Below are positions 11,283 to 32,233 of a stretch of DNA of 64,000 nt, piece by piece. The translations under genes were made by a program, and so were the position numbers. Within the stretch, counting starts at the first letter, position 1, and every line of letters begins with the position of its first letter. Origin of the DNA: Phycisphaerales bacterium (GTDB lineage Bacteria > Planctomycetota > Phycisphaerae > Phycisphaerales > UBA1924); assembly GCA_013360675.1 (NCBI GenBank), contig JABWBB010000002.1, positions 1 through 64,000 on the forward strand, given 5' to 3'. Under the pieces are notes generated by a model, which did not search any database, was not told where the DNA came from, and saw only the letters and a program-made list of their open reading frames with translations.

Positions 11283-11347
11283 TTGCCCCGATCCCGCGTC
11301 AACCGGATCTGCCGTGTTTCCTCGGACGGGAAGCCTGCCCCGAGGGC

Positions 11348-11376: not shown

Positions 11377-11395
11377 TTGGTGGAGGTTTTCGACC

Positions 11396-11857: not shown

Positions 11858-11948
11858 GACGTCGGACATCGGAACTGGTTGCGGCCCCGATCGCCCGCGT
11901 TGGGCGCGGTGGTGTGCTGCGCGTCGACAGTGGACAAGGAGACAACAC

Positions 11949-13171: not shown

Positions 13172-13189
13172 TGACACAGAGGAGACGCC

Positions 13190-13375
13190 ATTAGCTGCAA
13201 CTGCGGATGCCACGATGACAAGCCCCCGGCTACGGGATGGCGCAGGTATGTGCCGGTGATCGTGGGCGTGGGAGTGCTCGCCGCCATCATCGCGGGGGCC
13301 TTCCTGAGGAAGGACGGCACCCAGGACCGCGGTTCGACTCTGCAAGCTCCGAAGACGACGGCCCGAACGCCGTGA
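13190..13375 (+). CDS. Small Cys-rich single-pass membrane protein with ATT start
   Basis: An open frame of 61 codons from ATT at 13190 to TGA at 13373-13375. It reads (M)[16 protein letters not shown], then a membrane helix (about 20-38, [19 protein letters not shown]), then a polar tail. GAGGAG ends five bases before the ATT. An in-frame stop lies at 13172, and no ATG, GTG or TTG falls between it and the ATT; the first GTG downstream would remove the CxCxCH motif. The motif and the gene's place between the barrel and CopA argue that it is real and binds copper. ATT starts are rare, so the start is the uncertain part. Confidence 0.6.
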
Positions 13376-13400
13376 AAGAAGTCGACACACTAGGACCACG

Positions 13401-15878: not shown

Positions 15879-16353
15879 CCGGCAAGGACTCCGTCCGAGA
15901 ATGCGGTCGCCGGCCGAATTGCCGTCGCGGCAGTAGTCTTCTGGCGCATCCCACATGGAAAGTGCGATGGCCTGCGCTCCCGCGCTTGAACTCCGCGTGA
16001 CGAGCTGCGTAACGTGACATGGATTCCTCTCCATCACGCACGGCGTGTCGGAGTCGAATCCAGACGTTGCGGCGAAGGGGCACGATGCTCCGCCAGCCGC
16101 CAGCCCGCAGTTCTCGCGGGCGTCCCGACCTCGGAGGCACGGCTTCCGGGCGAACCCCAGGCACGGCTTGGACTGGGATCCACACGAAGCAGCACAACTG
16201 AGTCATTCGTGCCGTCGCGACCTGCGTCGCTGGCTCATCGCATGCTCGCGGTGTGTTGGCGCTCCAGCGTCGCGTCGGCGATCCCCGTCCGTACAAGATG
16301 CCGCGCGGCCGCTTCGACGTGATCGATCCGGCGCCGGCGAAAGGAAACACCAT
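15879..16353. other. Intergenic left edge of the island
   Basis: 475 bases without a convincing gene. Open frames here have no ribosome site and no recognisable protein. A short GCCG/CGGC stem near 15920-15934 could weakly end copA transcription. I could not find a direct repeat shared with the right side of the recombinase (28799-29163), so the attachment site is not defined. Confidence 0.5.
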
Positions 16354-17763
16354 ATGGATCCGAACATCCTTCTCAACAACCCCGACCTGCCCCCGAAGCT
16401 GCCGCAAGGAACGGTGGTGCAGCTCATCCCGATCGAGCGCATCAACCCCGCGCCGTACAACCCGCGCGTTGACCTGAAGCCCGGCGATCCGGGGTACGAC
16501 AAGCTTGTCAAGAGCATCGCCGAGTTCGGGCTCGTCGAGCCGCTGGTCTGGAACCAGCGCAGCGGCCACCTCGTCGGCGGCCATCAGCGGCTGAAGATCC
16601 TCCGTGACCGCGGTGATGAGATGGTGCCGGTCGTGGTCGTGGATCTTTCGTCGCAGAAGGAACGTGCCCTCAACCTCGCCCTCAACAAGATCCAGGGCGA
16701 CTGGGACGACACCAGGCTCGCGGAGGTTCTCCAGCACTTGATGCTGACGCCGCACCTTGATTGGGACCTCACCGGCTTCGAGTTCGATGAGGCCAAGGAC
16801 ATCATCGCCGAGGTGCTCGCCGACGCCGAGGAAGAAGCCGAAGAGGAGTTCGACGCGGAGCAGGAGCTGGCGAAGGCCGCGGCGCAGCCGGCCGTGACGC
16901 AGCCGGGCGACCTCATCCTGCTCGGCACCGATCCCGCCCGCCAGCACCGGCTGCTCTGCGGCGACAGCACCAACCCCGAGCACGTGCGTCGTCTGATGGA
17001 CGGCGAGCGGGCGGCGCTGTTTGCGACAGATCCGCCGTACCTCGTCGATTACGACGGCACCAACCACCCCGGGGCCAAGGCGGGCGTGAAAAACAAGGAC
17101 TGGTCGGGCACCTACGGCGTGACCTGGGACGACGCCGACGCCAACAGCGATCTTTACGACCGGTTCATCGCAACCGCAGTGGCGGAGGCGATCGCGCCGA
17201 ACGCGGCGTGGTACTGCTGGCACGCCTCACGCCGCCAGGCGATGCTCGAAGCGGCGTGGAACCGCCACGGCGCGTTTGTTCACTGCCAGATCATCTGGGC
17301 CAAGAACCGCCCGGTGCTCACGCGGACGTGGTACGCCTGGCAGCACGAGCCGTGCCTGATGGGCTGGATCCGCGGCAACCTGCCCCATCGCGCCGACGAA
17401 TCGCGGCTCTCCACGGTCTGGTCGATCGACACCATCCCCAACGGCGACCAGCGCCCCGACCACCCCACGCCCAAGCCGCTGGAGGTCTTCGAGATCCCGA
17501 TGCGGCAGCACACCAGGCCCGGCGAGGTCTGCTACGAGCCCTTCGCCGGCAGCGGCACGCAGATCATCGCGGCACAGCGGCTGCGGCGGCGCTGCTTTGC
17601 GATCGAGATCTCACCGGTCTACTGCGACCTCATCGTGCGGCGGTTCATCAAGCTGGCCGGCGAGGACGCCGTGGCGCCAGAGATCGCCGAGCGATACCGC
17701 GTTCGCGAGGTGCCTGCGCAGACGGTTGAGACGGCTGCTCAACCCACGGAGGGCGGGCAGTGA
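16354..17763 (+). CDS. ParB-like nuclease domain fused to DNA methyltransferase
   Basis: 469 residues. The N-terminal part (about 20-125) is ParB/sulfiredoxin-like (NPRVDLKPGD, FGLVEPLVWN, VGGHQRLKIL). An acidic linker follows, then a DNA methyltransferase with DPPY (D226-Y229) before FAGSGT (F397-T402). This motif order marks the beta class of N4-cytosine/N6-adenine enzymes. This fusion is common in phages and prophages, where it may protect phage DNA. Its position directly before terminase genes supports a phage origin. The start ATG at 16354 has AAAGGA upstream; a longer frame upstream has no such site. Confidence 0.85.
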   Translation: MDPNILLNNPDLPPKLPQGTVVQLIPIERINPAPYNPRVDLKPGDPGYDKLVKSIAEFGLVEPLVWNQRSGHLVGGHQRLKILRDRGDEMVPVVVVDLSSQKERALNLALNKIQGDWDDTRLAEVLQHLMLTPHLDWDLTGFEFDEAKDIIAEVLADAEEEAEEEFDAEQELAKAAAQPAVTQPGDLILLGTDPARQHRLLCGDSTNPEHVRRLMDGERAALFATDPPYLVDYDGTNHPGAKAGVKNKDWSGTYGVTWDDADANSDLYDRFIATAVAEAIAPNAAWYCWHASRRQAMLEAAWNRHGAFVHCQIIWAKNRPVLTRTWYAWQHEPCLMGWIRGNLPHRADESRLSTVWSIDTIPNGDQRPDHPTPKPLEVFEIPMRQHTRPGEVCYEPFAGSGTQIIAAQRLRRRCFAIEISPVYCDLIVRRFIKLAGEDAVAPEIAERYRVREVPAQTVETAAQPTEGGQ

Positions 17764-18602
17764 GCGAAAGCCACGACCCTTCGATTCCAGAGGAGCAGGG
17801 CGGCGGCGCTGACCAAGCGCCGCCGCCTCGCGCGCGGAGGCCTGTTCCCGAGCCCGAAGAGCCAGTCGAGTCCGACCACGCGACGGTGCTCGACATCCTC
17901 CGCGCGATCAAGTCCGGCCAGGTGAACCCGCGCAACGTCCGACCCGACGACCGGCGATTGTGCGTCGCTCATCTGGTGGGCGAAGGGTTGTCGGTCTCCG
18001 AGGTGGCGCAGGTGCTGCGGATCAGCGTGCGGACGGTGGCCCGCGACCGCCGGGCGATCAACGAGGAGAACGCGATCCAGCCCGATGCACGGCTGGCCGG
18101 CCTGTACGCGGGCCGGCTCGCCGCGGAGGCCGAGGCGACGATCGGCCGCATCCGCCGCGTCACCCGCGACAAGGACACGCCGCACGCGGTCAGGATCGAC
18201 GGCGAGTTCAAGTGCTACGACGTTCTCGACCGCTTCGTGCAGCGCCTGCAGTCCATGGGCTACCTGCCGACGGCCGCGCACCGGATTCAAGCCGATCTAA
18301 CCCACAACACCGGCGACCTGAGCAGCCTCGCGGAGCTGAAGGCCGAGCTCACCCGGCTCGAGTCCATCGACGCCGAGTGCCGTGTCATCGAGTCAGATGG
18401 AATCGGCGACGCCATGGATGACGCGTCTGAAGGCGACCTTCCTGCTCACGCCGGAGAGCATTCGGCACTGAGGGGCCCGGCCGGTGCATCCGTGCCTCGA
18501 GCCCAGACACGCGTTGAACGCGAGCGCCTGGAAGAGCAGGACATCAAGCGACGCATCGAAGAGAAGTGGAGGACCAAGAAGCCCGATGTCCAAGACCTCT
18601 GA
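17760..18602 (+). CDS. HTH protein, probable small terminase subunit
   Basis: 280 residues. A Pro/Glu-rich N-terminus leads to a helix-turn-helix (about 70-100: LVGEGLSVSEVAQVLRISVR) and then a helical region. The C-terminal tail is charged (RLEEQDIKRRIEEKWRTKK). The position right before the large terminase gene, the DNA-binding N-terminus and the helical remainder fit a small terminase subunit, but sequence similarity is not decisive. GTG start, overlapping the methyltransferase stop. Confidence 0.55.
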   Translation: MSESHDPSIPEEQGGGADQAPPPRARRPVPEPEEPVESDHATVLDILRAIKSGQVNPRNVRPDDRRLCVAHLVGEGLSVSEVAQVLRISVRTVARDRRAINEENAIQPDARLAGLYAGRLAAEAEATIGRIRRVTRDKDTPHAVRIDGEFKCYDVLDRFVQRLQSMGYLPTAAHRIQADLTHNTGDLSSLAELKAELTRLESIDAECRVIESDGIGDAMDDASEGDLPAHAGEHSALRGPAGASVPRAQTRVERERLEEQDIKRRIEEKWRTKKPDVQDL

Positions 18603-20190
18603 CACCCTCGTCGGCGTGCGGGCGGCGCTCTCGCTTCACCGTCGATCACTCGCGTCGCAGTCGCCTCGGGCGTTCGCCAAGGTGTACCTCGCCCGCCACT
18701 TCCGCTTGAAGCCCTCGCGCATGCACGAGGGGGTCTTCGAGCTGCTGGGTCAGGCCACCCAAGAACGCTCGAAGCGTCTAGCCGTCGCCGCGCCGCGCGG
18801 CCACGCCAAGAGCACCGTGGTCAGCCTGGCCTACGTGCTGTGGTCGGCGCTGTACCGCCACGAGCCGCTGATCCTGCTGGTCTCCGCCACACGCGAGCAG
18901 GCGGTGCAACTGCTCAAGAACGTCAAGGACGAGATCCAGGGCAACGAGCTGCTGCTGGAGGACTTCCCGGAGGTCTGCTCTCGCCCGGGCGAGGGCCGCA
19001 CGCCCAAGCCGTGGCGCGACAACAACATCCTCCTCCGCAATGGCGTCATGATCCGCGCCCTCGGCAGCGGCCAGGGCCTCCGCGGCGTGCGCCACGGCGC
19101 CAGCCGCCCCAGCCTGATCATCGGCGACGACCTCGAGAACCAGGAGCAGTGCGAGTCGCCCGAGCAGCGTGCCAAGATGCGCGACTGGTTCGAGAAGACG
19201 CTACTCAAGGCCGGCGACGGCCGCACCAACGTCGTGATCGTCGGCACCGTCCTGCACTACGACTCGCTCCTGGCCACCCTCGTCAACCCCGTCCGCGGCA
19301 AGGGTTCGGGCTGGGACAGCCGCGTATACCGCGCCGTCGAGTCCTTCAGCGAGCGCGCCGACCTCTGGGACCGCTGGGAGTCGATCCGCGTCGGCGAGGC
19401 CGAGCACGACGGCCGGCGCGGCCCGGTGGCGGCGGCGGCGTTCTTCGAGGCGAACAGACAGGAGATGCTCCGCGGCACGCGCGTGCTCTGGCCCGAGATG
19501 GAGGACTACCACCGGCTGATGCAGACCCGCGTCGACGAGGGTCGGCTGAGCTTCCAATCCGAGAAGCAGAACGAACCACTCGACCCCGAGCAGTGTCTCT
19601 TCTCGTCGGCGTCGTTCCGCTACTGGGATGATCAGAGCTCCGATCCTTCAGATCCCGCAGAGCTTCTCCGCAAGCTCGGCCCGCACACCCGCATCTATGG
19701 TGCCTGCGACCCGAGTCTGGGACGCCACGTCGGTCGCGGCGACTACACCGCGATCATCACCGTGGCCAAGGACGTCCGGGACGACTCGATCTACGTCCTC
19801 GACGCCGACATCGCCCGCCGCAAGCCCGAGCAGACCATCGAGCGGATCCTCGCGCTGGCGGGCGTGTACCGCTACGACGACTTCATCGTCGAGTCCAACC
19901 AGTTCCAGGAGATCATGGTCCGCCAGCTCGAGCACCTCGCCCGCACCCGCGGCGTGCGCCTCTACCCCCGCGCGGTGAGCAACACCGCCAACAAGCAGGC
20001 GCGGGTGGAGGGCCTCGAGCCGCTGATCAGCTCCGGCCGCCTCAAGTTCAGCCGCCGCCAATCCACGCTGCTGGACCAGCTCCGCCACTTTCCACTCGGC
20101 GCACACGACGACGGCCCCGACGCCCTCGAACTCGTCGTCACCCGCGCCGTCGAACGCCGAACAGCGAAGTTCGGGCGGTACGTGATGTGA
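18586..20190 (+). CDS. Phage terminase large subunit
   Basis: 534 residues. The N-terminal ATPase has a Walker A-like APRGHAKST (K75) and Walker B LIIGDDLEN (D181, D182), followed by a coupling segment (VIVGTVLHYDS). The C-terminal RNase-H-like nuclease shows CDPSLG (about 375), FIVESN and HDDGPDAL acidic residues. Such proteins drive DNA into phage heads and cut it. The start at 18586 overlaps the preceding gene by 17 bases. No portal, protease or capsid gene follows, so packaging here is either incomplete or depends on another phage. Confidence 0.9.
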   Translation: MSKTSDTLVGVRAALSLHRRSLASQSPRAFAKVYLARHFRLKPSRMHEGVFELLGQATQERSKRLAVAAPRGHAKSTVVSLAYVLWSALYRHEPLILLVSATREQAVQLLKNVKDEIQGNELLLEDFPEVCSRPGEGRTPKPWRDNNILLRNGVMIRALGSGQGLRGVRHGASRPSLIIGDDLENQEQCESPEQRAKMRDWFEKTLLKAGDGRTNVVIVGTVLHYDSLLATLVNPVRGKGSGWDSRVYRAVESFSERADLWDRWESIRVGEAEHDGRRGPVAAAAFFEANRQEMLRGTRVLWPEMEDYHRLMQTRVDEGRLSFQSEKQNEPLDPEQCLFSSASFRYWDDQSSDPSDPAELLRKLGPHTRIYGACDPSLGRHVGRGDYTAIITVAKDVRDDSIYVLDADIARRKPEQTIERILALAGVYRYDDFIVESNQFQEIMVRQLEHLARTRGVRLYPRAVSNTANKQARVEGLEPLISSGRLKFSRRQSTLLDQLRHFPLGAHDDGPDALELVVTRAVERRTAKFGRYVM

Positions 20191-20341: not shown

Positions 20342-20632
20342 ATGACCACACGCATCAAGTCCGATGAGGCCGTCGAGCGGATCGTACACGAACTCCTGGG
20401 CCGTGGAGGCCATCCGTCTTCCGTGCGAGACGGCGACAACCTCATGCAGGCGGGACTCACCAGCCAAGACGGCGTTGAGATGGCTTGCGACTTGGAGGCG
20501 CGATTGGGCATCATCGTCCCAGGCGACTTCAACCCACTCGTCCACGAGAGCGGAAGCCGCATGCGCACGCTCGGTGAACTCAAGGCGTGGGCCCGCGCCC
20601 AGCAGCCGACCACGGCGAAGAAGGGAGGCTGA
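20342..20632 (+). CDS. Acyl/peptidyl-carrier-protein-like protein
   Basis: 96 residues. The stretch DNLMQAGLTSQDGVEMACDL, followed by EARLGIIVPGD and a final helix (LGELKAWA), has the order of a carrier protein. S41 takes the place of the phosphopantetheinylated Ser in the usual GxDSLxxVEL. The Leu after Ser is Gln here, so the fit is imperfect. If modified, it would carry an acyl or aminoacyl group on a thioester. It is the first gene of the operon, directly behind the regulated promoter. The ACP-like call is moderate; the cargo is unknown. Confidence 0.55.
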   Translation: MTTRIKSDEAVERIVHELLGRGGHPSSVRDGDNLMQAGLTSQDGVEMACDLEARLGIIVPGDFNPLVHESGSRMRTLGELKAWARAQQPTTAKKGG

Positions 20633-20636
20633 AAGA

Positions 20637-20999
20637 ATGGACGAAGCAGTCGTACAACGTGAAGCTATCGCGCGGCGGCTCCGTGTCGCGCGTGAGCAGG
20701 CCGGCCTGAGTCAGGGACAGGTGGCCAAGCTCATGAGCTGGCACCGCCCTACCGTCAGCCAGATCGAGGCCGGTCAGCGACGGGTCAGCGCCGAAGAGCT
20801 CGCCTCGCTCGCCAAACACTACTGCGTCTCGGTGTCGTGGTTGGCGAAGACCGGAGAACCAGACCAGGACCAGGCCGACCCCCAGCTCGAGCTCGCGGCG
20901 AAGGAACTCGGGAGGCTCAAGCCCGACGACCTCCAACGCGTCATCAAGCTGCTCACCGCCCTTAAGAAGAGAGGGGGTGGCCATGGCGATCACCGTTGA
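20637..20999 (+). CDS. XRE-family repressor
   Basis: 120 residues. An N-terminal HTH_3 domain (about 8-65: RLRVAREQAGLSQGQVAKLM, then PTVSQIEAGQR) is followed by a helical tail (about 80-115). It starts five bases after the preceding stop and overlaps the ImmA gene. The XRE plus ImmA pair is a known switch: the protease cuts the repressor when a signal is present, as in ICEBs1. It probably binds the palindrome at 20309-20325 and represses the operon (inference). Confidence 0.9.
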   Translation: MDEAVVQREAIARRLRVAREQAGLSQGQVAKLMSWHRPTVSQIEAGQRRVSAEELASLAKHYCVSVSWLAKTGEPDQDQADPQLELAAKELGRLKPDDLQRVIKLLTALKKRGGGHGDHR

Positions 21000-21849
21000 T
21001 GTCGCCCGCCTGGCGCTCCGCAAGGCTATCGAGACCCGCAAGCGATTGGCGATCCCGATGGACCACGCCGTCTGCGCTGTGGACGTCGCGCAGCAACTCG
21101 ACCTCGAAGTGTGGTTCAAGCCGCTCGCGAGCCTGGCGGGGATGTACTCCGGGGCAGACGACCCGACGATCATCATCGGATCGGACCGCCCCGCCGGCTA
21201 CCAGGCATCCGTCTGCTCGCACGAGATCGGTCACCATGTGTTTGGGCATGGAACCAGAGTCGATGAGTATGTCGAGGGCGCCGGTCGCGCCAGATCTGAC
21301 GACCCAGACGAGTCCCTCGCGAACCTCTTCGGCAGTCACCTCCTCATGCCTCAGGCCGCGGTCGCTCGCGTGTTTGCGGCGCGTGGATGGTCGTTGAAAC
21401 ACCCGACGCCCGAGCAGGTCTACATCGCCGCCGGATACCTCGGCGTGGGTTACCAGGCACTCGTCCATCACCTTCGATGGACGATCCGCTCATTGGCCGG
21501 AAGTGTCTTCGACCATCTGCTCGGGTTCCAGGCCAAGGACATCCGTCAGTCGCTCCGCGGCCGTGCCACGCCGCAGAACCTCATCGTTGTGGACGTTCAC
21601 TGGCTGGACCGCCCCATTGATCTGGTGGCCGGAGACTTGGCGTTTCTGCCCACCGGTGCTCGGGTTGAAGGCATGGCCGTTCAGCTCATCGATGAAAGCG
21701 AGGACCGCGTTACGATCCGCGCCACACGGCGCGGCATCGCACGGGCCGAGGCCTCCCGGCCCGAGTGGAGTTCGTTCATTCGGGTCATGCCAAAGTGCTA
21801 TGACGGCGCCGCGGTCCATCGACACCTGGAGGATCCAGATGAGCCATGA
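20983..21849 (+). CDS. ImmA/IrrE-family metallopeptidase
   Basis: 288 residues. The metalloprotease core has HEIGHHVFGH (H80, E81, H84) and the downstream zinc-site helix with SLANLFGSHLLMP. A C-terminal extension of about 120 residues (from about 170) has no clear match. The family cleaves XRE-type repressors, and its XRE partner is the gene just upstream. The ATG at 20983 is chosen over the GTG at 20977 because GAGGGGG lies about six bases before it. It overlaps the next gene by 11 bases. Confidence 0.88.
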   Translation: MAITVDVARLALRKAIETRKRLAIPMDHAVCAVDVAQQLDLEVWFKPLASLAGMYSGADDPTIIIGSDRPAGYQASVCSHEIGHHVFGHGTRVDEYVEGAGRARSDDPDESLANLFGSHLLMPQAAVARVFAARGWSLKHPTPEQVYIAAGYLGVGYQALVHHLRWTIRSLAGSVFDHLLGFQAKDIRQSLRGRATPQNLIVVDVHWLDRPIDLVAGDLAFLPTGARVEGMAVQLIDESEDRVTIRATRRGIARAEASRPEWSSFIRVMPKCYDGAAVHRHLEDPDEP

Positions 21850-22684
21850 GAACTGTGTCGTACCCGGTGGCAACCTATCCGTGGTTTGGGCCCGTGCTTT
21901 CCTTCGCGTGTTCGATGCGACCGGGGGCGAGCTCGCGCACCCGCTGCTGCTGTCGGTCACAGAGTTCAACAACCTCGGGGAGCCGGTCGAGATCCCGGCT
22001 ATCAGAGACGCCCTCGACGAGACCATCGACGCCATCAACAAGGGTGGCAATAAACGCAAGCTCCAGGGCGTCTCCGCCACCGCCAGCACCATCTTCCCGC
22101 ACATGAGCTGGTCACCCAGGTCCACCCGCCCCGCCGCCGAGCTGTTCGACCACTACAGGGACAAGGTGTACCCGAGGCTGAAGAAGCTCTGTTCGCTCAA
22201 CACGCATGGGACGTACTTCCTCCGCATGATCGACTGCCCGAGTTGCCGCCCCGATGGCACCCGTGTCAACCAGCTCGGGTCGATCATCGAGTGGTGGAGG
22301 CGAGACCGGGCCCAGGGCAAACGCACGCGCCGGAGCGCCATGCAGGTGTCCATCTACGACCCACCCCGCGACCACACCGGTTCGGGCCAAGGCGGCTTCC
22401 CCTGCTTGCAGCAGGTCAGCTTCGGGTGGAGCGACCGTGGCCTCGTGCTCTCGGCGTACTACCCGACCGAGTGGATTCTCGACCGCGGGTACGGCAACTA
22501 CCTTGGCCTCTGCCAGCTCGGGGCGTTCATGGCGCATGAGATGGAGCTGCCTCTTGACCGGGTGAACATCTTCGTCGCGCTCCCCGAGCGTGGGAGCGTC
22601 TCCAAGTCGGCCACCCAGTCGCTCGCGGACCTGCTCCGTTGCTACGAGTGCAATCCCTTGCCCGCAGCGGAGGCAACTCCATGA
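21839..22684 (+). CDS. Divergent thymidylate-synthase-fold protein
   Basis: 281 residues. The C-terminal half aligns by spacing with ThyA: FPC (C189) matches the nucleophile C146 of E. coli, and N220 in GNYLGL lies exactly 31 residues on, matching N177. The phosphate-binding RSxD is replaced by PTEW, and the H207/Y209 pair is absent. It may therefore act on a different or non-phosphorylated pyrimidine, or be a regulatory paralogue. Starts at 21839 inside the ImmA gene and overlaps the kinase gene by ATGA. The fold call rests on these motifs and the neighbouring genes, so it is moderate. Confidence 0.55.
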   Translation: MSHENCVVPGGNLSVVWARAFLRVFDATGGELAHPLLLSVTEFNNLGEPVEIPAIRDALDETIDAINKGGNKRKLQGVSATASTIFPHMSWSPRSTRPAAELFDHYRDKVYPRLKKLCSLNTHGTYFLRMIDCPSCRPDGTRVNQLGSIIEWWRRDRAQGKRTRRSAMQVSIYDPPRDHTGSGQGGFPCLQQVSFGWSDRGLVLSAYYPTEWILDRGYGNYLGLCQLGAFMAHEMELPLDRVNIFVALPERGSVSKSATQSLADLLRCYECNPLPAAEATP

Positions 22685-23301
22685 CCGCCGGTCGACTCAT
22701 CGTTCTGGAAGGTCCGGACGGTGCCGGCAAGAGCACGACATCGGCGCGCTTGGCCGAGCGGCTGCGCTCGGCCGGGGAGTGCGTGTCCTGCTTTGCGCTC
22801 CCAGGCAACGAACCCGGCTCGCTCGGCAAACACGTGCACGGCCTCCACCACGAACCGACGCGTCACGGGGTCCGTGGCATCCACGCTACGGCTCTGCAAG
22901 TGCTGCACGCTGCCGCTCACATTGACTCGATCTACACCACTATCCGGCCAGCGCTGGAGCGGGGAGACATCGTGATCATGGACCGGTTCTGGTGGTCCAC
23001 CCTCGTCTACGGCCGCGTCACAGGAGTCGACGCCGTGACGCTCGGGTTGCTACAGCAACTCGCCGAGCACCACTGGAGATTCGCCGTGCCGTCGGCTGCC
23101 TACGTGCTCATGGGACAGTCGGATGGTCCGCCAAGCGCGCAGAGCCAGACGGATCAGCTCCGCCACGCCTACTCGGAGTTCGTTGCGGCGCTCACGGTCT
23201 CTTTCCCAGTCCGGGTACTGCACGCTAGCGGAGTGAACGACCACTATGCAGAGCAGATCCTGCAGGAGTTCGGGGCCCGTGGCCGACGTAGTCCCGCATG
23301 A
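22681..23301 (+). CDS. Thymidylate-kinase-like P-loop kinase
   Basis: 206 residues. P-loop LEGPDGAGKST (K17), DR motif IVIMDRFWWS (D101, R102) and overall length match dTMP kinases. The LID region (MGQSDGPPSAQSQTDQ) lacks the usual cluster of arginines, so catalysis or substrate may differ. In this operon it could phosphorylate a modified dTMP analogue made by the flanking ThyA-like proteins (inference). It is coupled to both neighbours by four-base overlaps. It is not the obvious housekeeping tmk. Confidence 0.75.
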   Translation: MTAGRLIVLEGPDGAGKSTTSARLAERLRSAGECVSCFALPGNEPGSLGKHVHGLHHEPTRHGVRGIHATALQVLHAAAHIDSIYTTIRPALERGDIVIMDRFWWSTLVYGRVTGVDAVTLGLLQQLAEHHWRFAVPSAAYVLMGQSDGPPSAQSQTDQLRHAYSEFVAALTVSFPVRVLHASGVNDHYAEQILQEFGARGRRSPA

Positions 23302-24374
23302 GTCCAGCGATGCCCCGAGCCACCTCACAACGCCGACCTCGCCGCAAAGGGCCTGCCGAACGTCCGTCGGCGCCCTATGTGTTCAGTCGACTGGCCCCGG
23401 TTCAAACTACTCCGGTCTACGACACGTACTGGCGGTTCGCGGTCGAGCGACAGGCCATTCTCCTCCGTCGCGCCCGCGGCGCTCCGGCCCCTTGGACGAA
23501 AGATCCAGTCCTCTTACGGCACAAGTTTACCAATGCGTACCGGGCGGCCGACCGCGTCAGTCAGTTCCTGATTGCGCATGTCATTTACCAGGGTTCCGCG
23601 CAAGCGGACGAGGTCGTGTTCCGAGTCCTGCTTTTCAAGCTGTTCAACAAGATTGAGACGTGGGAACTCTTGCAGCAACGACTTGGCGAACTGTCGTGGA
23701 GGCGATTCGAAGCCTCTCAGTATGCCGCCATTCTCTCTGGCGCCAGAGCGGCGGGCACGCGCATCTATTCACCGGCATACATCATGCCTTCCGCACGTTC
23801 GGCATTCGGATCTGCGGAGAAACACCGCAATCATCTCGCACTGATCGAGCACATGATGCGGGACCGCGTGACAACCAAGATCACGAAGGCGGCGAGCTTG
23901 GGCGGCGTGTACGCAACGCTTCGCTCGTATCCATCGCTTGGTCCATTCCTCGCATTCCAAATGGCGATCGACCTGAACTACTCGCCGATCATCGACTTTG
24001 ACGAGATGTCGTTCGTTGTGCCCGGCCCGGGGGCTCTGGACGGAATCGCCAAGTGCTTCAGCACGCGAGCCGGGCTCAACGAGGTCGACATCATCAAGCT
24101 CGTTGCCGACCGACAGGACGCCGAGTTCCAGAGTCGGGGTTTGACGTTCGAGCCTCTTGGCCATCGTCGGCTCCAACTGGTCGACTGCCAGAATCTCTTC
24201 TGCGAAGTAGATAAGTACGCGCGCGTGGCTCATCCAGAGGTCCAGGGCCTCAGCGGACGGACGCGCATCAAGCAGGTCTTTACGCCGAAGCGCGAGCTTC
24301 TAAAGCTCTGGTTCCCGCCGAAGTGGGGCGTCAACGAGGTCCTTTCCAAGCAGTTGCAGCAGGTGCCAAGATGA
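23298..24374 (+). CDS. HMUDK-helical/thymine-pyrophosphorylase-like protein
   Basis: 358 residues. The N-terminal half (about 40-140) shows VYDTYWRFAVERQAI, then PWTKDPVL, HKFTNAYRAADRVSQFLI and FRVLLFKLFNKIETWELL. I recognise this as the helical domain of the 5-hmdU DNA kinase / alpha-glutamyl- or putrescinyl-thymine pyrophosphorylase group. In phages making hypermodified thymine, such proteins act on 5-hydroxymethyluracil in DNA. The C-terminal half (about 190-355) has no separate domain that I can name. It lies between a TMK-like and a ThyA-like gene with ATGA overlaps on both sides. The family call is from memory of motifs; a profile search would settle it. Confidence 0.7.
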   Translation: MSPAMPRATSQRRPRRKGPAERPSAPYVFSRLAPVQTTPVYDTYWRFAVERQAILLRRARGAPAPWTKDPVLLRHKFTNAYRAADRVSQFLIAHVIYQGSAQADEVVFRVLLFKLFNKIETWELLQQRLGELSWRRFEASQYAAILSGARAAGTRIYSPAYIMPSARSAFGSAEKHRNHLALIEHMMRDRVTTKITKAASLGGVYATLRSYPSLGPFLAFQMAIDLNYSPIIDFDEMSFVVPGPGALDGIAKCFSTRAGLNEVDIIKLVADRQDAEFQSRGLTFEPLGHRRLQLVDCQNLFCEVDKYARVAHPEVQGLSGRTRIKQVFTPKRELLKLWFPPKWGVNEVLSKQLQQVPR

Positions 24375-25384
24375 ATGTCTTCAACGCCAACTCCGCTGAC
24401 TTGGCATGGCGACAGGCCGCCGATGCCATCGTCCGCCGCCACGGCGCTGACGAGGTGGAGTCTCGCAACGGTCGAGCTGTCGAACTCGTCCACGCATGCG
24501 TGACCGTCACCAACCCGCGCGCACGCTGGATCGCTTCCCGTTTGCCAGCGATGAACATCGCCTTGGCAATCGCGGAGGTGGCACAGATCGTGGCCGCTGG
24601 GGACGACGTGCCGTTCCTCGAGCATTGGTTCCCAAAGTACGGTGAGTACGTGGGGAGTCGTGACAAGGCCGCCGGCGCCTATGGCACACGGCTTCGGGTC
24701 AGGTGGGGTTTCGATCAGATCGCGCGAGCGGCCGAATCGCTGGCTGCTCGTGGCGAGAGCCGACAGGTCGTCCTCTCAATCTGGGACCCCCGGACGGACT
24801 TGCCAGAAGCCAATGGGTGCCCCAGGTCGGGTGACGTCCCCTGCAACGTCCTGAGCTGCCTCCGGCTGGTTGGCGGCCGGCTCCATTGGCTCCAGACCGT
24901 GCGGAGCAACGACCTATTCCGTGGCCTGCCGAACAACATCGTTCAATTCACCTGCCTTCAGGAGATCATCGCTGGCTGGATCGGAGCCGACGTCGGCCAG
25001 TACTCGCACACCATCAGCAGTTTGCATGCATATGTGAAGTCTCTCAGCGAGTTTCACATCGACCCAGAGGTGCCCGCAGTCGGCGAATCGTTCGACATCA
25101 GGCTTCCGCGCTCTGATGCAGAGGTCGCATGGACTAACTTGTACCGACTGGCGCAAGAGCTCGTCGCCCAAACGAACGACCGCCCGTCTCTGCCATCGTT
25201 TGCCACCGCGACCGACCTCGGACCCCTTCAGCCTATGTACTGGATACTCGTCGCCGAGAACGCCAGAAGACGCGGATGGCAAGCCCAGTCACAAGAGGCC
25301 GTGCAGATGTGCCATGACCGCACGCTAGTAACGATGTGGCACCGGTGGATCCGACGATTCGATGCACGGCATGCCCATTCGTGA
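24371..25384 (+). CDS. ThyA-family deoxypyrimidine (hydroxy)methylase
   Basis: 337 residues. All key thymidylate-synthase positions are present at exact E. coli spacing from the nucleophile: C158 (C146), R178-S-N-D181 (R166, D169), GLP, N189 (N177), H219 (H207) and Y221 (Y209). AGAYGTRLR and the Glu of IAEVA match the upstream TS elements. Asn at the N177 position predicts uracil rather than cytosine. It is either a thymidylate synthase or a dUMP hydroxymethylase, the first enzyme of phage thymine hypermodification. The operon favours the latter (inference). Last gene of the operon, ATGA-coupled. Confidence 0.8.
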   Translation: MNVFNANSADLAWRQAADAIVRRHGADEVESRNGRAVELVHACVTVTNPRARWIASRLPAMNIALAIAEVAQIVAAGDDVPFLEHWFPKYGEYVGSRDKAAGAYGTRLRVRWGFDQIARAAESLAARGESRQVVLSIWDPRTDLPEANGCPRSGDVPCNVLSCLRLVGGRLHWLQTVRSNDLFRGLPNNIVQFTCLQEIIAGWIGADVGQYSHTISSLHAYVKSLSEFHIDPEVPAVGESFDIRLPRSDAEVAWTNLYRLAQELVAQTNDRPSLPSFATATDLGPLQPMYWILVAENARRRGWQAQSQEAVQMCHDRTLVTMWHRWIRRFDARHAHS

Positions 25385-25578: not shown

Positions 25579-26013
25579 TCATGGCTCTGACGTCTCAAAC
25601 AACCCTCGGGCGTATTTCCTGAACCGAGCCTTGGACCCTTTGGCCGCGATCTCGCGGATGATGGCGGCGTACAGCGTTGCCTCGGGGGTCTTGCCGCTCG
25701 GGCTCTTCCACAGGCCTCTGGCGGCCATCTGCTCGATCAACTCCTTCGCCGTCATCGGTTTGTTGGCATCGGCGATGATCTGTGCCGCGGCGTCCAGAGC
25801 ACCCGGGCGTTTGGGCTTGATTGCCTTGCTGGCCTTTGGTGGCTTCCCCGTGTTCTTGTTCGCACTCCTCGCGGCGCTCGGCTTGCCCTGCAATCGCTGC
25901 TGGATCTCGGCGATCGCGGCCTTCCGGGCCCTCTCGGTGCCCGCCACCGGTGCGGCTTTGGAGTTGGCGTCAACCTTCTTGCTCTTTCCACTTCCTGACT
26001 TCTTCCCAGTCAT
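25579..26013 (-). CDS. HARE-HTH domain protein
   Basis: 144 residues. A Lys/Ala/Ser-rich N-terminal tail (about 1-65) is followed by a HARE-type winged helix (about 70-140: ALDAAAQIIADANKPMTAKE, KTPEATLYAAIIREIAAKG, RFRKYARGLFE). HARE-HTH domains occur in RNA polymerase delta and in DNA-modification or restriction-linked proteins, and are thought to read DNA modification state. The ATG at 26013 is preferred; the upstream frame is not protein-like. It converges on the thymidine-modification operon. Confidence 0.8.
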   Translation of the reverse strand: MTGKKSGSGKSKKVDANSKAAPVAGTERARKAAIAEIQQRLQGKPSAARSANKNTGKPPKASKAIKPKRPGALDAAAQIIADANKPMTAKELIEQMAARGLWKSPSGKTPEATLYAAIIREIAAKGSKARFRKYARGLFETSEP

Positions 26014-26360
26014 AGGACTTCCTTTCCGTTGATGGCGATCGTGGCAGAGTGCCGCGGCAACGCGTGGCCGGCGACGGTGCCGACACGCAACGGATAGGAC
26101 CATCAACAGGCGAGGAAGGCAAGGTCCATCTGCAGCTACTCCGGCCCATTCACGCGATCGGGCTGGCGTCACCGACTCGCGATGCGTGATCCACTCGCGT
26201 CGTCCACCGCTCTCCGGATCTGCGGAACTCGGTTACCGAAGATTCGCGCGGATGTGCGCCGAAACCCCTTGCCATCTCCGAGATTACATGGCTCAGTGTG
26301 TGCGCCGAGCCGGGATTGGCGCAACTGACGCGAGGTCCCAGATGACGGCGGGAGTTGACT
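26014..26360. other. Divergent intergenic region
   Basis: 347 bases between the HARE-HTH gene (minus) and the DUF2924 gene (plus). It should hold both promoters, but I see no convincing -35/-10 pair, repeat or RNA gene. Confidence 0.4.
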
Positions 26361-27002
26361 GTGAAGCACGAACCGAAAGCCCAACATCCCGGACCTGCGC
26401 GGCTTGATAACGAACAACGCGAGGCGCGGGCCGGCGCCATTGATGTCGCGCGCCTTGCGGACCTTTCCATTGCGGATCTACGAGATCTGTGGCTGAAGCA
26501 CATGGGCCGGGCATCGCCGCCGTCGCAGAAGCGACTGTTGATCCGCGAGTTGGCGTGGCGGGTGCAGGAACGCGTCCACGGCGGCCTCGACGTCGAGACG
26601 CGGAGGCTCCTCTCCCGCGCCATGCGAGCCGCGACAGCGGACGACAAGCCTGTCGATGCGGCCGCAGACGCGAACGGCGTGCAGGTGCCAACCGCGAAGC
26701 GCCGGCCGCGGGGCGCTGCTTCGACAGCGCGGGCCTCGGGAAACGACCTCCCACCGGCCACGAAGCTCTCCCGTGTCTGGAAAGGAGTCCGGTATGAGGT
26801 CTACGTCCTTGACGGCGGCCGCTTCCGCTTGGGGGGACGCGACGAGACCTACGCCAGCCTCAGCGAGATCGCCCGCGAGATCACCGGCACGCGCTGGTCC
26901 GGCCCGCGGTTCTTTGGGCTGACGACGCGTGAGGGTTCCGGCGACGAAGACCCGCGCTCGAGCAACAGGCAACGCCCACGCCGCAACGGAGGTGACTCAT
27001 GA
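26361..27002 (+). CDS. DUF2924 protein, recombinase partner
   Basis: 213 residues. N-terminal helical part (ADLRDLWLKHMGR, LLIRELAWRVQE), Ala-rich linker, then the DUF2924 core: RVWKGVRYEVYVLDGG, then YASLSEIAREITGTRWSGPR. DUF2924 genes are found directly before large serine recombinases, as here. Their function is unknown; a recombination accessory is plausible. A GTG start at 26361 is chosen because GGGAG lies seven bases upstream; TTG at 26355 is too close to it. Overlaps the recombinase by ATGA. Confidence 0.8.
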   Translation: MKHEPKAQHPGPARLDNEQREARAGAIDVARLADLSIADLRDLWLKHMGRASPPSQKRLLIRELAWRVQERVHGGLDVETRRLLSRAMRAATADDKPVDAAADANGVQVPTAKRRPRGAASTARASGNDLPPATKLSRVWKGVRYEVYVLDGGRFRLGGRDETYASLSEIAREITGTRWSGPRFFGLTTREGSGDEDPRSSNRQRPRRNGGDS

Positions 27003-28798
27003 CCACGCCGATCGTTCGCTGCGCCGTCTACACGCGCAAGTCGAGCGAGGAGGGCCTCGACATGGCCTTCAACTCGCTCGACGCTCAACGCGAGGCCGGT
27101 CTTGACTACATCAAGAGCCAGAAGCACCAGGGATGGACCGCCATCACTACCGCCTACGACGACGGCGGCTACTCCGGCGGCTCGACCGACCGGCCCGGCC
27201 TCCAGCGACTCCTCGACGACATCCGCAAGGGCCGCGTCGACGTCGTCGTGGTCTACAAGGTCGACCGCCTCTCGCGATCACTGGCCGACTTCGCCCGGCT
27301 CATGCAGACCTTCGACGAGCACAACGTCTCGTTTGTCTCCGTGACCCAGCAGTTCAACACCACGACGTCGATGGGCCGGCTGACGCTGAACATGCTCCTC
27401 TCTTTCGCCCAGTTCGAGCGCGAGGTTGCGGGCGAGCGCATCCGCGACAAGATCGCCGCGACCAAGCGCAAGGGCGTCTGGGTCTGTGGCCAGCCTCCAG
27501 TGGGCTACCGGCTGCCGTGCGAAGGTGATGCCGACTTCGTGCCGGGCGACCGCACGCTCCGGGTGATCGAACCGGAGGCCGAGTTGGTTCGCGCAATCTT
27601 CAATGGCTACCTCGAACTCGGCTCGCTGGTCGACCTCGCCGCCAGGCTCAACGCCGAGGGCCATACCACCAAGAGCTGGACTAGCAGTCGCGGCAAGATC
27701 CACGGCGGACGCCCCCTCACCGCCGCGTTCCTCTACCGAGTCCTGACCAACCCGGTCTACATCGGCAAGATCGCTCACACCCGCGGCCGCAACAACAAGA
27801 GCGTCTCCAAGCAGACTGAGGTCCACCAGGGGCACCACCAACCGATCATCGACCAAGCGACTTGGGACAGCGTCCATGCCCGGATGGGCACGATCGAACG
27901 CGAGTCGCGCCACAAGTGGACGCACACCCACCTGCTCAAGGGCAAGATCCGCACCTCCGAGGGGCACGCCATGAGCCCGGGGTCGGTGCAGCGCCCGGTG
28001 TCGAAGCGCGACGATTGCCGCCGCGTTCGCGGCGACACGGCTCGACGCATCGTCCGCTACTACGTCAGCCAGAAGGCCGTGAAGCAGGGCTTCATGACCT
28101 GTCCGATCAAGACGATCAACGCGGCGCACATCGACGACCTGATCCGCGGCTTGGTGCTCGATCACCTCAAGAACCACCATCACGCCAACCTGCGCGATCA
28201 GCAACCCGAGACACGAGACCGCTGGATCCGCGAGGTTGTTCACCGAGTGGTGGTTGCTACGGACCGCATCACCGTCGAACTGATCCACGAGCGGATCGCC
28301 GCATGCGTCGATGCGGCACGCGACCAGGGAACCAGCCGCGCGGCGAGCGCCTGCGACAGCACCAAAGCGGTACCGGCATGCCCCTTCACGCCCGAGATCG
28401 AAGATCGCGGCCAGCACATGACGCTCACGCTACGCATCCAGATCAAGCGCCACGACGGCCGCCGCGTGCTCCTCAGCCCCGACGGCCACGACCTGCTGAC
28501 CACCATCACGCCCGACGGATGCCCGGTCACCCGCGACCACCTCGTCCGCGCGGTCGGCCTCGCCTTCGCGTGGCACCGCGAGTTGACACGGGCGGACCGC
28601 ACAATCGAGTCGGTCGCGGTGCGCGCCGGCGTGACCGCCGGACGGGTTCACTCGATCCTCACACTGACGCAGCTCAGCCCGACGATCCTTCGATCGGTCC
28701 TCACCGGCTCTCTCGGATCGAGCGTCACCCTGCTCGATCTGCTCCGAGCAGCCCAGCGCTTGGACTGGTCGCGGCAGGCCCAGGCGCTCGGCGCGTGA
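26999..28798 (+). CDS. Large serine recombinase
   Basis: 599 residues. The resolvase catalytic domain (about 5-150) has YTRKSS (nucleophile probably S15), VDVVVVYKVDRLSRS and EREVAGERIRDKI. A recombinase domain (about 180-290: LVDLAARLNAEG, FLYRVLTNPVYIG) and a long C-terminal region follow. The usual zinc-ribbon cysteines (CxxC pair) are not obvious. Such enzymes integrate and excise mobile elements without needing long homology. It is the likely integrase of this island and is translationally coupled to the DUF2924 gene. Confidence 0.92.
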   Translation: MTTPIVRCAVYTRKSSEEGLDMAFNSLDAQREAGLDYIKSQKHQGWTAITTAYDDGGYSGGSTDRPGLQRLLDDIRKGRVDVVVVYKVDRLSRSLADFARLMQTFDEHNVSFVSVTQQFNTTTSMGRLTLNMLLSFAQFEREVAGERIRDKIAATKRKGVWVCGQPPVGYRLPCEGDADFVPGDRTLRVIEPEAELVRAIFNGYLELGSLVDLAARLNAEGHTTKSWTSSRGKIHGGRPLTAAFLYRVLTNPVYIGKIAHTRGRNNKSVSKQTEVHQGHHQPIIDQATWDSVHARMGTIERESRHKWTHTHLLKGKIRTSEGHAMSPGSVQRPVSKRDDCRRVRGDTARRIVRYYVSQKAVKQGFMTCPIKTINAAHIDDLIRGLVLDHLKNHHHANLRDQQPETRDRWIREVVHRVVVATDRITVELIHERIAACVDAARDQGTSRAASACDSTKAVPACPFTPEIEDRGQHMTLTLRIQIKRHDGRRVLLSPDGHDLLTTITPDGCPVTRDHLVRAVGLAFAWHRELTRADRTIESVAVRAGVTAGRVHSILTLTQLSPTILRSVLTGSLGSSVTLLDLLRAAQRLDWSRQAQALGA

Positions 28799-29163
28799 CC
28801 GTCGCTGACTGAACCCGTCGATCACCCGAGCCACGCCTGAGATCACACCGCGCCGCTCGCTCGACCGGCGGACATCGCGCGAACATCGCCCTGAATTACA
28901 GCGGCTGTCGAGTGCCCCTTGGCCGCGCGCTCTGCCAAGCCTCAGCGAGCGCCGGGCGCGCACCGCGAGGTCCGAGTTGATCGACCCTCGAATTCCACAC
29001 TGCCGAAACTGGCCCCGAGAGACTTTCGGGCGAATACGGCCCGAAGCCGACCGCATCGGCGATCTCCCGCGTCTTTCCGCGCCCGAGACTCGCGGAATCT
29101 CGCGGGAAATCGCGAAGAAACGACAAAGCGGGAGACCCTCGCAAGGAGAGTCTCCCGCTCAAG
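28799..29163. other. Right edge of the island, no gene seen
   Basis: 365 bases between the recombinase stop and tRNA-Ser. The distal part holds the tRNA terminator (29115-29159). No open frame with a ribosome site and no direct repeat with 15879-16353 was found. The attachment site is expected here but cannot be placed. Confidence 0.4.
29115..29159 (-). terminator. Intrinsic terminator after tRNA-Ser
   Basis: On the minus strand, AGCGGGAGAC and GTCTCCCGCT (arms at 29150-29159 and 29127-29136) form a 10-bp stem with a 13-base loop. A T-rich tail (TTTGTCGTTTCTT) follows. It lies five bases past the tRNA-Ser 3' end. Confidence 0.75.
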
Positions 29164-29254
29164 CGGAGAGGGGGGGATTCGAACCCCCGATACAGGCCTA
29201 AACCCGTATAACGGTTTAGCAAACCGCCGCCTTCAGCCTCTCGGCCACCTCTCC
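29164..29254 (-). tRNA. tRNA-Ser(GCT)
   Basis: A 91-base cloverleaf with a 7-bp acceptor (GGAGAGG/CCTCTCC), discriminator G, anticodon loop TTGCTAA (GCT, codons AGC/AGU), a long class II variable arm as expected for serine, and the T-arm GGTTCGAATCC. Confidence 0.95.
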
Positions 29255-30008: not shown

Positions 30009-32141
30009 TCACTCGTCGAACAACCCGCCCGGTGCGGGCTTGGCCTTCACACCGATGCGGGGCTTATTCGCGCCCTTGTTGGCGATGCCCCTGGTGGTGG
30101 GGGTCTCGCCGGGCTTCTTGACCGCCGCTGACTTTCGAGTGGTTTCTTCATCGCGAGCGGGCGGCTTCGCCCCTGTCACCGGTGGTGGAGGAGTGGGTGC
30201 GTCCCGCGCGATGATGATCACGCCGTCATCGTCGGCCTCGGCGTTCTTCACCGAACGCCCCTCGTCATCCAGCACCAGGTCCGCCACCGCGGTCTTTTTC
30301 TTCGATTGCGCCAGCAGCGCCTCGTACAACCGTTTGGGATCGGTCCCATTGACCTCGTGCACGGCCTTGGCGATCTCGCCGATGTACCGCTCAAAGACGT
30401 CGCGTCGCTCCGACTCACGCCGCATCTTCGCGCGCTTGTTCAGATACGACCCGAGTTTCCGCCCGCACTCCATCAGCGCCAGGCGCATCTCCTTGCGGAT
30501 CTCGTCATAGTCGGCGATCGCCTCCTTGCTCTCGCTGGTGAAGGGCACCCACACGCTGGCCATGTGGATCATGATCACCAGCGGGCCGATGGGCGCGCCC
30601 CCGCGCGGGTGCTGCAACTCATAGTTCCGCCAGTTCGTGTCCACCACCGCCTTGAACGACGAGCACGCCGCCTGCTGATACAGCAGCGGCACGCGGTTGG
30701 CAAAGCGGATCACCCGCGCCGTCTCATCGCCGGGCAGATCCCCGCCAAAGGCGATCGCCGCCTCGATCTGGAATGGCCTGCCCCGATACACCGCAGCCTC
30801 GCGCGACGACGCTGCGTAAAACTCAGCCCGCACCCCCTTGAGCATCCCCGCCAGCAACTGCCGCACGCCAATGGGCGCGAGGCAATCCACCGGCGGCGGG
30901 GGCAGTTTCGCTTCCTGCAACTCGCGGAACAACTTTTCCGCGATCGCGTGATCGACCTCGCCCACCTTCGTGCGGCTCGTCAGTTTCACCTTCGAGCAGA
31001 GCGACGAAGCCGCCGCCGCCGATACGCGGCAGAACTTCTCCTGCAGAAACTGATATAGCGTCGTGCTCGCCCGCTCGACCTCGGCCTCCTTGAGCATCTG
31101 CAGCAGCATGCCTAACTCAACCCCGCGAGGGTGCGGCTGGATCTCCTGCGTCTCGGGCGGGAGTTCCGTCACCCCGCGCGGATAATCCACCACCCCGCCC
31201 GTCTCCTGCGTCCGCACCGGCTCGTCGGGCGACGCGGCCTTGCCAACCCGCGACGCAAACTCGAGCACGTCTTCATCATCCCCCGCGTCGCGCGTGGGGG
31301 GAACAAAGACAATGCGTGCGTGCGGATTGGCGATCGCAGTCAGTTCGAGAAACTCGTCCACCGAGCCTCGCCCGCGCTGGTATCGACCCTCCAACTCGAG
31401 GCTCACGCTCGTGCCGGTGGGATAGTGCTCGGGGTCAAGGAACTCACCTTTGGCCGCGAGCGCCCGCGTCCCCGCGCTGAGCGTGCCCAGCCGCCGCGGC
31501 GGAAAGTCGTCGGTCTCCGTGTCCACCGTGACCTCGGCGCGGTTGGTCTTGGTGTTCATCGCCAATTCAAGATGGTGCGCCTCGGCCTTCTTCGAGGGCT
31601 TGGTGTGGATCACCATGGGACGCCCGGTGGTGAGCAGGCCGTACATCCCCGCGGCCGAGATACCGATGCCCTGCTGCCCGCGCGACATCTTGAGCCGGTG
31701 GAACTTGCTTCCGTACAGCAGCCGTCCGAAGACATTCTCGACCTGCTTGCGCACGATGCCCGGGCCGTTGTCGACCACCGTCACGCGATAACGCGACGAC
31801 GCGGGTGGGCGCTTCTTCGCGCCGCCCTCGCCACCCTTGTCCGCCTTGTCGGGCTTGGCCGATGCGTCTTCGAGGTCCTCAATCACCACCGTGATGTCGG
31901 GCAGGATCCCCGCTTCCTCGCACGCGTCGAGCGAGTTGTCCACGGCCTCCTTCACCGTCGTCAGCAGCGCCTTGCGCGGGTTGTCAAACCCCAGCAGATG
32001 CCGGTTCTTCGCGAAGAACTCGCTGACCGAGATATCCCGCTGCTTGCCCGCCATCGTCTCGGCGGTCGCCCGCGAGCGGGTCGCCCGCTTGCCCCCGGTC
32101 TCCTGCGGGGCGGTCTCTTCCTCAACCAACGCTTGGGTCAT
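30009..32141 (-). CDS. top6B: DNA topoisomerase VI subunit B
   Basis: 710 residues. GHKL ATPase domain: NPRKALLTTVKEAVDNSLDA (N-box), VTVVDNGPGI, GQQGIGISAAGMYG. The H2TH and transducer regions follow (KVGEVDHAIAEKLF; LLYQQAACSSFKAV; WVPFTSESKEAIADY). Top6B drives the ATP-dependent gate of a type IIB topoisomerase together with the Spo11-like Top6A. No top6A is present in this window. The C-terminal 90 residues are a low-complexity Lys/Pro tail. The ATG at 32141 has GGGAGGG upstream and is preferred to the frame opening at 32177. Confidence 0.92.
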   Translation of the reverse strand: MTQALVEEETAPQETGGKRATRSRATAETMAGKQRDISVSEFFAKNRHLLGFDNPRKALLTTVKEAVDNSLDACEEAGILPDITVVIEDLEDASAKPDKADKGGEGGAKKRPPASSRYRVTVVDNGPGIVRKQVENVFGRLLYGSKFHRLKMSRGQQGIGISAAGMYGLLTTGRPMVIHTKPSKKAEAHHLELAMNTKTNRAEVTVDTETDDFPPRRLGTLSAGTRALAAKGEFLDPEHYPTGTSVSLELEGRYQRGRGSVDEFLELTAIANPHARIVFVPPTRDAGDDEDVLEFASRVGKAASPDEPVRTQETGGVVDYPRGVTELPPETQEIQPHPRGVELGMLLQMLKEAEVERASTTLYQFLQEKFCRVSAAAASSLCSKVKLTSRTKVGEVDHAIAEKLFRELQEAKLPPPPVDCLAPIGVRQLLAGMLKGVRAEFYAASSREAAVYRGRPFQIEAAIAFGGDLPGDETARVIRFANRVPLLYQQAACSSFKAVVDTNWRNYELQHPRGGAPIGPLVIMIHMASVWVPFTSESKEAIADYDEIRKEMRLALMECGRKLGSYLNKRAKMRRESERRDVFERYIGEIAKAVHEVNGTDPKRLYEALLAQSKKKTAVADLVLDDEGRSVKNAEADDDGVIIIARDAPTPPPPVTGAKPPARDEETTRKSAAVKKPGETPTTRGIANKGANKPRIGVKAKPAPGGLFDE

Positions 32142-32233
32142 GCGTCGCCCTCCCTGGCGATTGTGGCGTGCCATCACCCGACAGGGTACGCGCCCCGCCC
32201 TCGTCCTTGCAACGCGGGATAGCCCGACATGCG

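Follow-up and report, generated by a model that had tools for sequence, protein, structure and literature searches.

A predicted dUMP 5-hydroxymethylase of the thymidylate synthase superfamily in a mobile seven-gene cassette, a candidate nucleotide-modifying defence system

Introduction

The first 64,000 nucleotides of contig JABWBB010000002.1 from a Phycisphaerales bacterium (hereafter the window, meaning the whole stretch analysed) encode a relative of thymidylate synthase (TS), here called ThyA1, at the end of a run of overlapping genes. Does this protein make dTMP like a housekeeping ThyA, or does it make a modified nucleotide, and what would the genes around it do with the product? Our best explanation, to which we assign an overall probability of about 0.6, is that ThyA1 is a dUMP 5-hydroxymethylase within an inducible, mobile, nucleotide-modifying cassette that probably serves defence.

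ThyA1 is a divergent member of the TS superfamily

The ThyA1 reading frame is open throughout, and its start shares four bases, ATGA, with the end of the preceding gene (Table 1). Its product matches Pfam PF00303 (E=5e-16, above the family cut-off) and PHROG 5131 thymidylate synthase (E=1.9e-43), and its best sequence match in the PDB is the CMP hydroxymethylase MilA (E=3.5e-16)—scores that place it in the TS superfamily well above chance. To examine individual positions, we aligned ThyA1 and 35 relatives from bacterial loci (36 in all) with E. coli ThyA, T4 gp42, SPO1 gp29 and five more phage enzymes. C158, R178, D181, N189, H219 and Y221 of ThyA1 align with C146, R166, D169, N177, H207 and Y209 of E. 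coli ThyA, bearing out the spacings from C158 reported for these six residues in the first-pass annotation, and the TS core (C146, R166, D169, H207 and Y209 in E. coli numbering) is kept in all 36 bacterial proteins. That annotation had also held that every catalytic position is retained, a wording that is too strong: the six named residues stand, but the TS-specific W80, W83, R127, L143, H147 and C-terminal tail are changed.

ThyA1 is otherwise divergent, as described at first pass. By maximum likelihood, the housekeeping enzymes (E. coli ThyA with 11 ThyAs of the host's class) form one clade (support 100/100) that does not include ThyA1, and 33 of the 36 cassette ThyA1 proteins form a second (100/100); the window protein groups with those of four other loci, L027, L017, L028 and L029. 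Very long branches lead to some of the phage enzymes, and this tree gives no resolved order among the hydroxymethylase branches, including SPO1 gp29. The host genome (97% complete) carries a single PF00303 gene, ThyA1 itself, and a check for a separate thyA or thyX, as suggested at first pass, yielded ThyX on another contig (G000:C26; 179.8 bits). ThyA1 is thus neither the sole TS gene of its genome nor part of the housekeeping clade. No ThyA was found in eight sampled genomes of the host's own family. Identity as a housekeeping ThyA is excluded by the presence of ThyX, the tree position and the loss of TS-specific residues.

Residue signatures point to hydroxymethylation of dUMP

As a control, we took 30 ThyAs, chosen without any filter, from genomes of the host's class. 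W80, W83, R127, L143 and H147 are present in all 30 of them, and none is present in ThyA1; among the 36 bacterial relatives, W80, L143 and H147 are missing throughout, and R127 and W83 each occur in two (the alignment near W80 shifts between runs, and the claim there is limited to the lack of a Trp). The housekeeping C-terminal PVAI/V tail is likewise absent from ThyA1 when aligned with these ThyAs. All 36 relatives and all seven phage enzymes carry Asp at position 143, where each of the 30 ThyAs has Leu; in ThyA1 this Asp is D155, three residues before the nucleophile C158. In the ternary structure of T4 dCMP hydroxymethylase, Leu143 and Trp83 of E. coli TS correspond to Asp145 and Val85; Asp145 is the proposed activator of the water that becomes the hydroxyl, the D145N variant is inactive, and an Asp three residues before the Cys forms part of the published hydroxymethylation signature (PMC6400193).

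Position 147 is Asn or Thr in the ThyA1 relatives. At position 177 all 36 carry Asn (N189 in the window), and T4 gp42 and MilA carry Asp. A study associating TS enzymes with modified DNA ranked 147 and 177 as the top two discriminating positions, and took Asn177 to indicate dUMP and Asp177 to indicate cytosine (PMC8670742). The uracil substrate proposed at first pass from this Asn is supported by its full conservation among the relatives and by the Asp of the cytosine enzymes. The other element of the T4 signature, a Ser or Thr two residues before the Tyr94 equivalent, is not seen in ThyA1, which has Gly102 before Tyr104. This Ser is missing from SPO1 gp29 and the M6 enzyme as well and is therefore no marker for telling dUMP hydroxymethylases apart. 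A T4-type dCMP hydroxymethylase identity for ThyA1 fails on both Asn189 and Gly102.

On these sequence features, 5-hydroxymethylation of dUMP is the best prediction for ThyA1, and one that we hold with good confidence; as in the first-pass annotation, it is preferred over ordinary dTMP synthesis, given Asp at 143, Asn at 177, the separate clade and the ThyX of the genome. The changes at TS-specific positions lend it further support. If ThyA1 were a dTMP synthase, ordinary or backup, borne on a mobile element, the retention of all six core TS residues and of Asn177 would be accounted for, yet this is very improbable for a protein that has lost W80, W83, L143, H147, R127 and the tail found in 30/30 ThyAs, that bears the hydroxymethylase Asp, and that branches apart in a host already equipped with ThyX.

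Organization of the seven-gene cassette

The predicted hydroxymethylase is the last of seven genes in the order ACP, HTH, M78, ThyA2, TMK-like kinase, HEL and ThyA1, each of which, as annotated, overlaps the next (Table 1). The identical order recurs in L017, L027, L028 and L029, with protein identities of 47-82%. Across the cassette, dN lies well below dS where dS is unsaturated, and pN lies well below pS for all seven genes. The cassette is real and under selection, as seen from the ATGA overlaps, the order shared by four loci, and the dN/dS and pN/pS values. Within the carrier protein, Ser41 is invariant in 62/62 relatives. Of the "modification operon" proposed at first pass, the coupled operon stands, but a simple DNA-modification operon does not fit a second TS-fold gene, an ACP, a protease-repressor pair and a kinase outside PF18748, and the related loci have the appearance of defence cassettes.

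Table 1. Features of the cassette and of the adjoining recombinase module, with window coordinates.
Feature	Coordinates	Strand	Remarks
ACP-like carrier protein	20342..20632	+	PF00550, 20.7 bits, just below the cut-off of 20.8
HTH_31/HTH_3 repressor-like protein	20601..20999	+	PF13560; PADLOC capH match
M78 (ImmA/IrrE-like) metallopeptidase	20977..21849	+	PF06114; PADLOC capP match
ThyA2, second TS-fold protein	21839..22684	+	Cys189 and Asn220 kept; no equivalents of R166, D169 or H207
Thymidylate-kinase-like P-loop kinase (TMK-like)	22681..23301	+	PF02223; ATGA overlaps with both neighbours
HEL, HMUDK_hel protein	23298..24374	+	PF18723, 366 bits
ThyA1, TS-superfamily protein, predicted dUMP 5-hydroxymethylase	24371..25384	+	337 aa; C158, D155, N189
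HARE-HTH protein	25579..26172	-	also accompanies the cassette in L027, L028 and L029
DUF2924 protein of the recombinase module	26355..27002	+	
Large serine recombinase, probable mobility gene	26999..28798	+	PF00239 and PF07508
tRNA-Ser	29163..29254	-	next to the recombinase

Structure–function features of ThyA2, HEL and the kinase

By sequence, ThyA2 matched nothing in Pfam, in PHROG, in the PDB or among phage proteins; against NCBIfam it gave a weak TIGR03283 match (26.9 bits, far under the cut-off). Its TS-like nature emerges from profile comparison with ThyA1 (96% probability, E=1.8e-9) and from its predicted fold. In the profile alignment, C189 and N220 of ThyA2 correspond to C158 and N189 of ThyA1, and the positions of R178, D181 and H219 are occupied by P209, W212 and E250. 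The predicted structure (pLDDT 92) matches MilA and a phage dCMP hydroxylase (both Z 16.7), a related FAD-bound enzyme (Z 16.6) and TS (Z about 15). On this model, ThyA2 is a predicted TS-fold protein with the nucleophile and the base-binding Asn and without the usual phosphate and folate contacts, and it may act as either an enzyme or a sensor.

HEL belongs to the same family, HMUDK_hel, as M6 gp55 (190 bits), and neither has a PDB match by sequence. The nearest structure to the HEL model (pLDDT 92) is the PaMx11 5-phosphomethyl-dU glycinyltransferase (PUGT; Z 11.4), followed by the queuine salvage enzyme DUF2419 (Qng1; Z 10.5) and HhH DNA glycosylases (Z at most 9.4); Foldseek on its own gave E=0.059. 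As such Z values can arise without kinship in mostly helical models, the link is suggestive, and the model fits a base- or nucleotide-acting enzyme. Phage LuckyBarnes (L004, 4840-8855) encodes a HEL relative next to a TS-like gene and two TET-associated glycosyltransferases, an arrangement that links HEL, in a phage, with hydroxymethyl bases that are glycosylated.

The kinase encoded from 22681 is a Thymidylate_kin protein, and the M6 and Det7 kinases belong to PF18748; BLASTP between it and M6 gp54 aligned the P-loop only. Its identity as a phage-type 5-hmdU DNA kinase (PF18748) is ruled out by the Thymidylate_kin match. Membership in PF02223 rather than PF18748 points to a nucleotide substrate, and we infer from the family assignment that the kinase phosphorylates a nucleotide such as 5-hmdUMP rather than DNA. 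A second TMK match in the host genome lies on contig C39. A PADLOC match of the kinase to PDC-M51B was set aside as uninformative: the same model is matched by 59 of 61 relatives and by 13 of 14 control genomes.

Phyletic distribution and mixing of cassette components

Scanning genome contigs with HEL recovered 536 relatives, and HEL occurs in more than 500 bacterial loci. We clustered the ORFs around HEL for the best 80 of the 536, together with a few loci from genome searches. Parts of the cassette recur in about 90 loci over many phyla, including plasmids. Around HEL, we found the HTH protein and ThyA2 in 67 loci each, M78 in 64, ACP in 62 and ThyA1 in 37, two of them phage; the kinase is fused to HEL in many loci and separate in 19. 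Other recurrent neighbours are MazG-MazG_C (38 loci), a DCD dCTP-deaminase-like protein (30), AcpS (22), a ThsB-type TIR (21), Nmad2 (19), radical SAM (13) and TIR-SLOG (8).

Co-occurrence was scored in the 68 loci with enough flanking sequence, a sample conditioned on HEL whose p-values assume independent loci, which these are not fully. The kinase accompanies ThyA1 in 27 of 30 loci, against 10 of 38 loci without ThyA1 (Fisher p=1e-7, loci treated as independent). Under the same assumption, ThyA1 and MazG tend to exclude each other (three loci with both; p=4e-7), as do ThyA2 and Nmad2 (p=3e-7). ACP is found in 52 of the 54 ThyA2 loci, many of them without ThyA1, and AcpS, present in 20 loci, always occurs with ACP. 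Loci without ThyA1 retain the remaining cassette genes.

These associations bear on a further alternative for ThyA1, namely another C5 reaction in which the methylene is trapped by an amine or by the phosphopantetheine thiol of ACP, or in which the substrate is another uracil nucleotide. An ACP with an invariant Ser41, its constant presence wherever AcpS is encoded, and the variability of residues around the methylene site in the 36-relative alignment could all suit such chemistry; but ACP tracks ThyA2 rather than ThyA1, and the feature conserved in ThyA1 is the Asp water activator, which makes this alternative very improbable beside dUMP 5-hydroxymethylation.

On a B. elkanii plasmid (L144, 4582-7747), an inhibitor-I42 domain protein and a C1-family peptidase occupy the M78 position, and the protease type of the cassette seems exchangeable from this case; a uracil-DNA glycosylase and MazG adjoin ThyA2 in the same region. 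At L059 (10565-12748), a metallophosphoesterase with a weakly TS-like C-terminal half (PF00303, 21 bits, under the cut-off) adjoins cassette genes, and related ORFs are present in L045, L071, L076 and L081. On an M. intracellulare plasmid (L149, 6371-8942), HEL lies near a dihydrofolate reductase, and the other cassette genes are not annotated there.

Genomic surroundings and mobility

Downstream of ThyA1, the HARE, DUF2924 and serine-recombinase genes are shared with L027 and L028, and the L028 recombinase ends at a tRNA-Ser as it does in the window. GC content is 62-65% at 20-26 kb and 66-70% across most of the window, and copies of the cassette reside on conjugative plasmids. The cassette is mobile, as evidenced by the recombinase and tRNA-Ser common to L028, the lower GC and the conjugative plasmid copies. 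A search for direct repeats of at least 13 bases between the tRNA-Ser side and 10.0-20.4 kb found none.

Directly upstream of the cassette, 16045-20190 encodes a ParB-N/DNA methylase, an HTH protein and a large terminase (PHROG 38, E=6.5e-106), with no capsid or tail genes recognised near them; this segment is possibly phage-satellite-like or a prophage remnant. Further upstream lies a copper-handling cluster (7354-15878) comprising an outer membrane efflux protein, a multicopper oxidase, a metal-sensitive (CsoR-type) repressor, an HMA protein and an HMA-containing E1-E2 ATPase. On the far side of the recombinase module, a topoisomerase VI B-subunit, unusual in bacteria, is encoded on the minus strand at 30009-32177 (PF09239, 187 bits).

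Defence-system neighbours were scanned for ten neighbour proteins from four plasmid loci only. Lamassu LmuA/B/C lie beside L143 and Shedu beside L144; L146 has a weaker, partial LmuB-like match, and the one neighbour scanned for L145 gave none. Of the annotated plasmid copies, the one in S. fredii thus adjoins Lamassu, the one in B. elkanii (L144) Shedu, and a further one in R. rosettiformans a SIR2/AAA pair. The window cassette's own neighbours are the terminase, the ParB-methylase and the copper-resistance genes.

Functional interpretation

The likeliest role of the cassette, as predicted from its gene content, is an inducible nucleotide-modifying defence, a reading that follows from the protease-repressor pair, the spread on plasmids, the defence neighbours in some loci and the versions that carry TIR or Nmad2. 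Under stress from phage or DNA damage, the M78 protease would probably cleave the HTH repressor. ThyA1 would then use TS chemistry, with attack of the Cys on C6 and transfer of a one-carbon unit from methylene-THF to C5, and a water held by D155, in place of hydride, would quench the exocyclic methylene to give 5-hmdUMP. The TMK-like kinase would next phosphorylate 5-hmdUMP, and HEL with the ACP/ThyA2 module may add further changes to the base or nucleotide, yielding a product that would probably be anti-phage, as a poisoned or marked nucleotide or as marked DNA. A bolder version, which we regard as doubtful, is that phosphopantetheinylated ACP, ThyA2 and a PUGT-fold HEL load a group onto the 5-hmdU made by ThyA1, giving a new anti-phage thymidine nucleotide that acts as poison, mark or signal.

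The main rival to defence is self-protection, a minority possibility in which the cassette would make hypermodified thymine in DNA, shielding the mobile element or a former phage carrier from restriction in the style of M6, ViI or SPO1; ThyA1 would make 5-hmdUMP, which would enter DNA and be decorated there by HEL. M6 does encode a TS of the same signature together with a kinase and an HMUDK_hel protein, the Det7 TS of this type adjoins a 5-hmdU DNA kinase, and 5-hmdU-derived bases are recorded for M6 and ViI (PMC6449724). The LuckyBarnes neighbourhood, and the terminase and ParB-methylase just upstream in the window, agree with this as well. Against it, the kinase is a Thymidylate_kin rather than a PF18748 protein; most relatives sit on chromosomes or plasmids of many phyla, with no capsid genes noted; TIR, Nmad2, MazG and the protease-repressor pair are left unexplained; and loci without ThyA1 keep the remaining genes. 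Defence by nucleotide modification is the reading that we favour.

Among phages that rebuild their own DNA, synthesis of 5-hydroxymethyl-dUMP is established, and the same enzyme type is found here in a widespread bacterial cassette. Across many phyla and on conjugative plasmids, this cassette joins a carrier protein and a protease/repressor switch of the stress type to predicted nucleotide modification. Should it prove to serve defence, bacteria would have turned the base-modification chemistry of phages against phages. Its ACP and ThyA2 suggest a novel nucleotide product, and the seven small genes form a directly testable set.

Comparison with known systems

ThyA1 is a new member of a known enzyme branch. 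It shares with SPO1 gp29, annotated as a dUMP hydroxymethylase, the TS fold core, the Cys nucleophile, Asn at N177 and the replacements L143 to Asp, H147 to Asn and R127 to Gln; it differs in having only 22% identity to gp29 and in coming from a bacterial cassette rather than from a lytic phage that replaces all its thymine. With T4 gp42 dCMP hydroxymethylase and MilA CMP hydroxymethylase it has in common the Asp at the third residue ahead of the Cys, and gp42, like ThyA1, also lacks Trp83 and the C-terminal tail of TS, but both of these enzymes act on cytosine and carry Asp where ThyA1 has Asn. The phage thymidine hypermodification loci (M6, Det7/ViI) resemble the cassette in their hydroxymethylase-type TS, and M6 also in an HMUDK_hel protein beside a kinase; unlike them, the cassette is without PF18748 and includes the additional ACP, HTH, M78 and ThyA2 genes. 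Its adjacent XRE-like HTH repressor and M78 protease recall the CapH/CapP and ImmR/ImmA pairs, but the cassette pair is embedded in the operon between ACP and ThyA2, and no CBASS genes were seen beside it.

A parallel by domain type comes from a 2026 machine-learning study (DefensePredictor), in which candidate units were cloned in E. coli MG1655. The validated anti-phage units include a TS with a 5-hydroxymethyluracil kinase, and a dNMP kinase and NMAD appear in the same figure; systems with MazG, MazG-C, dUTPase and aGPT-Pplase are given there as predicted and untested (PMC13092281). Compared by domain type only, these units match the TMK-HEL-ThyA1 core and the TIR-Nmad2 versions, but an acyl carrier protein is not mentioned in the text of the paper (PMC13092281). 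Within the literature searched, the module of ACP and ThyA2 appears undescribed, and the combination of parts in the seven-gene set seems not to have been described previously. With its ACP and ThyA2, the seven-gene set is a variant of a system type that is only now emerging.
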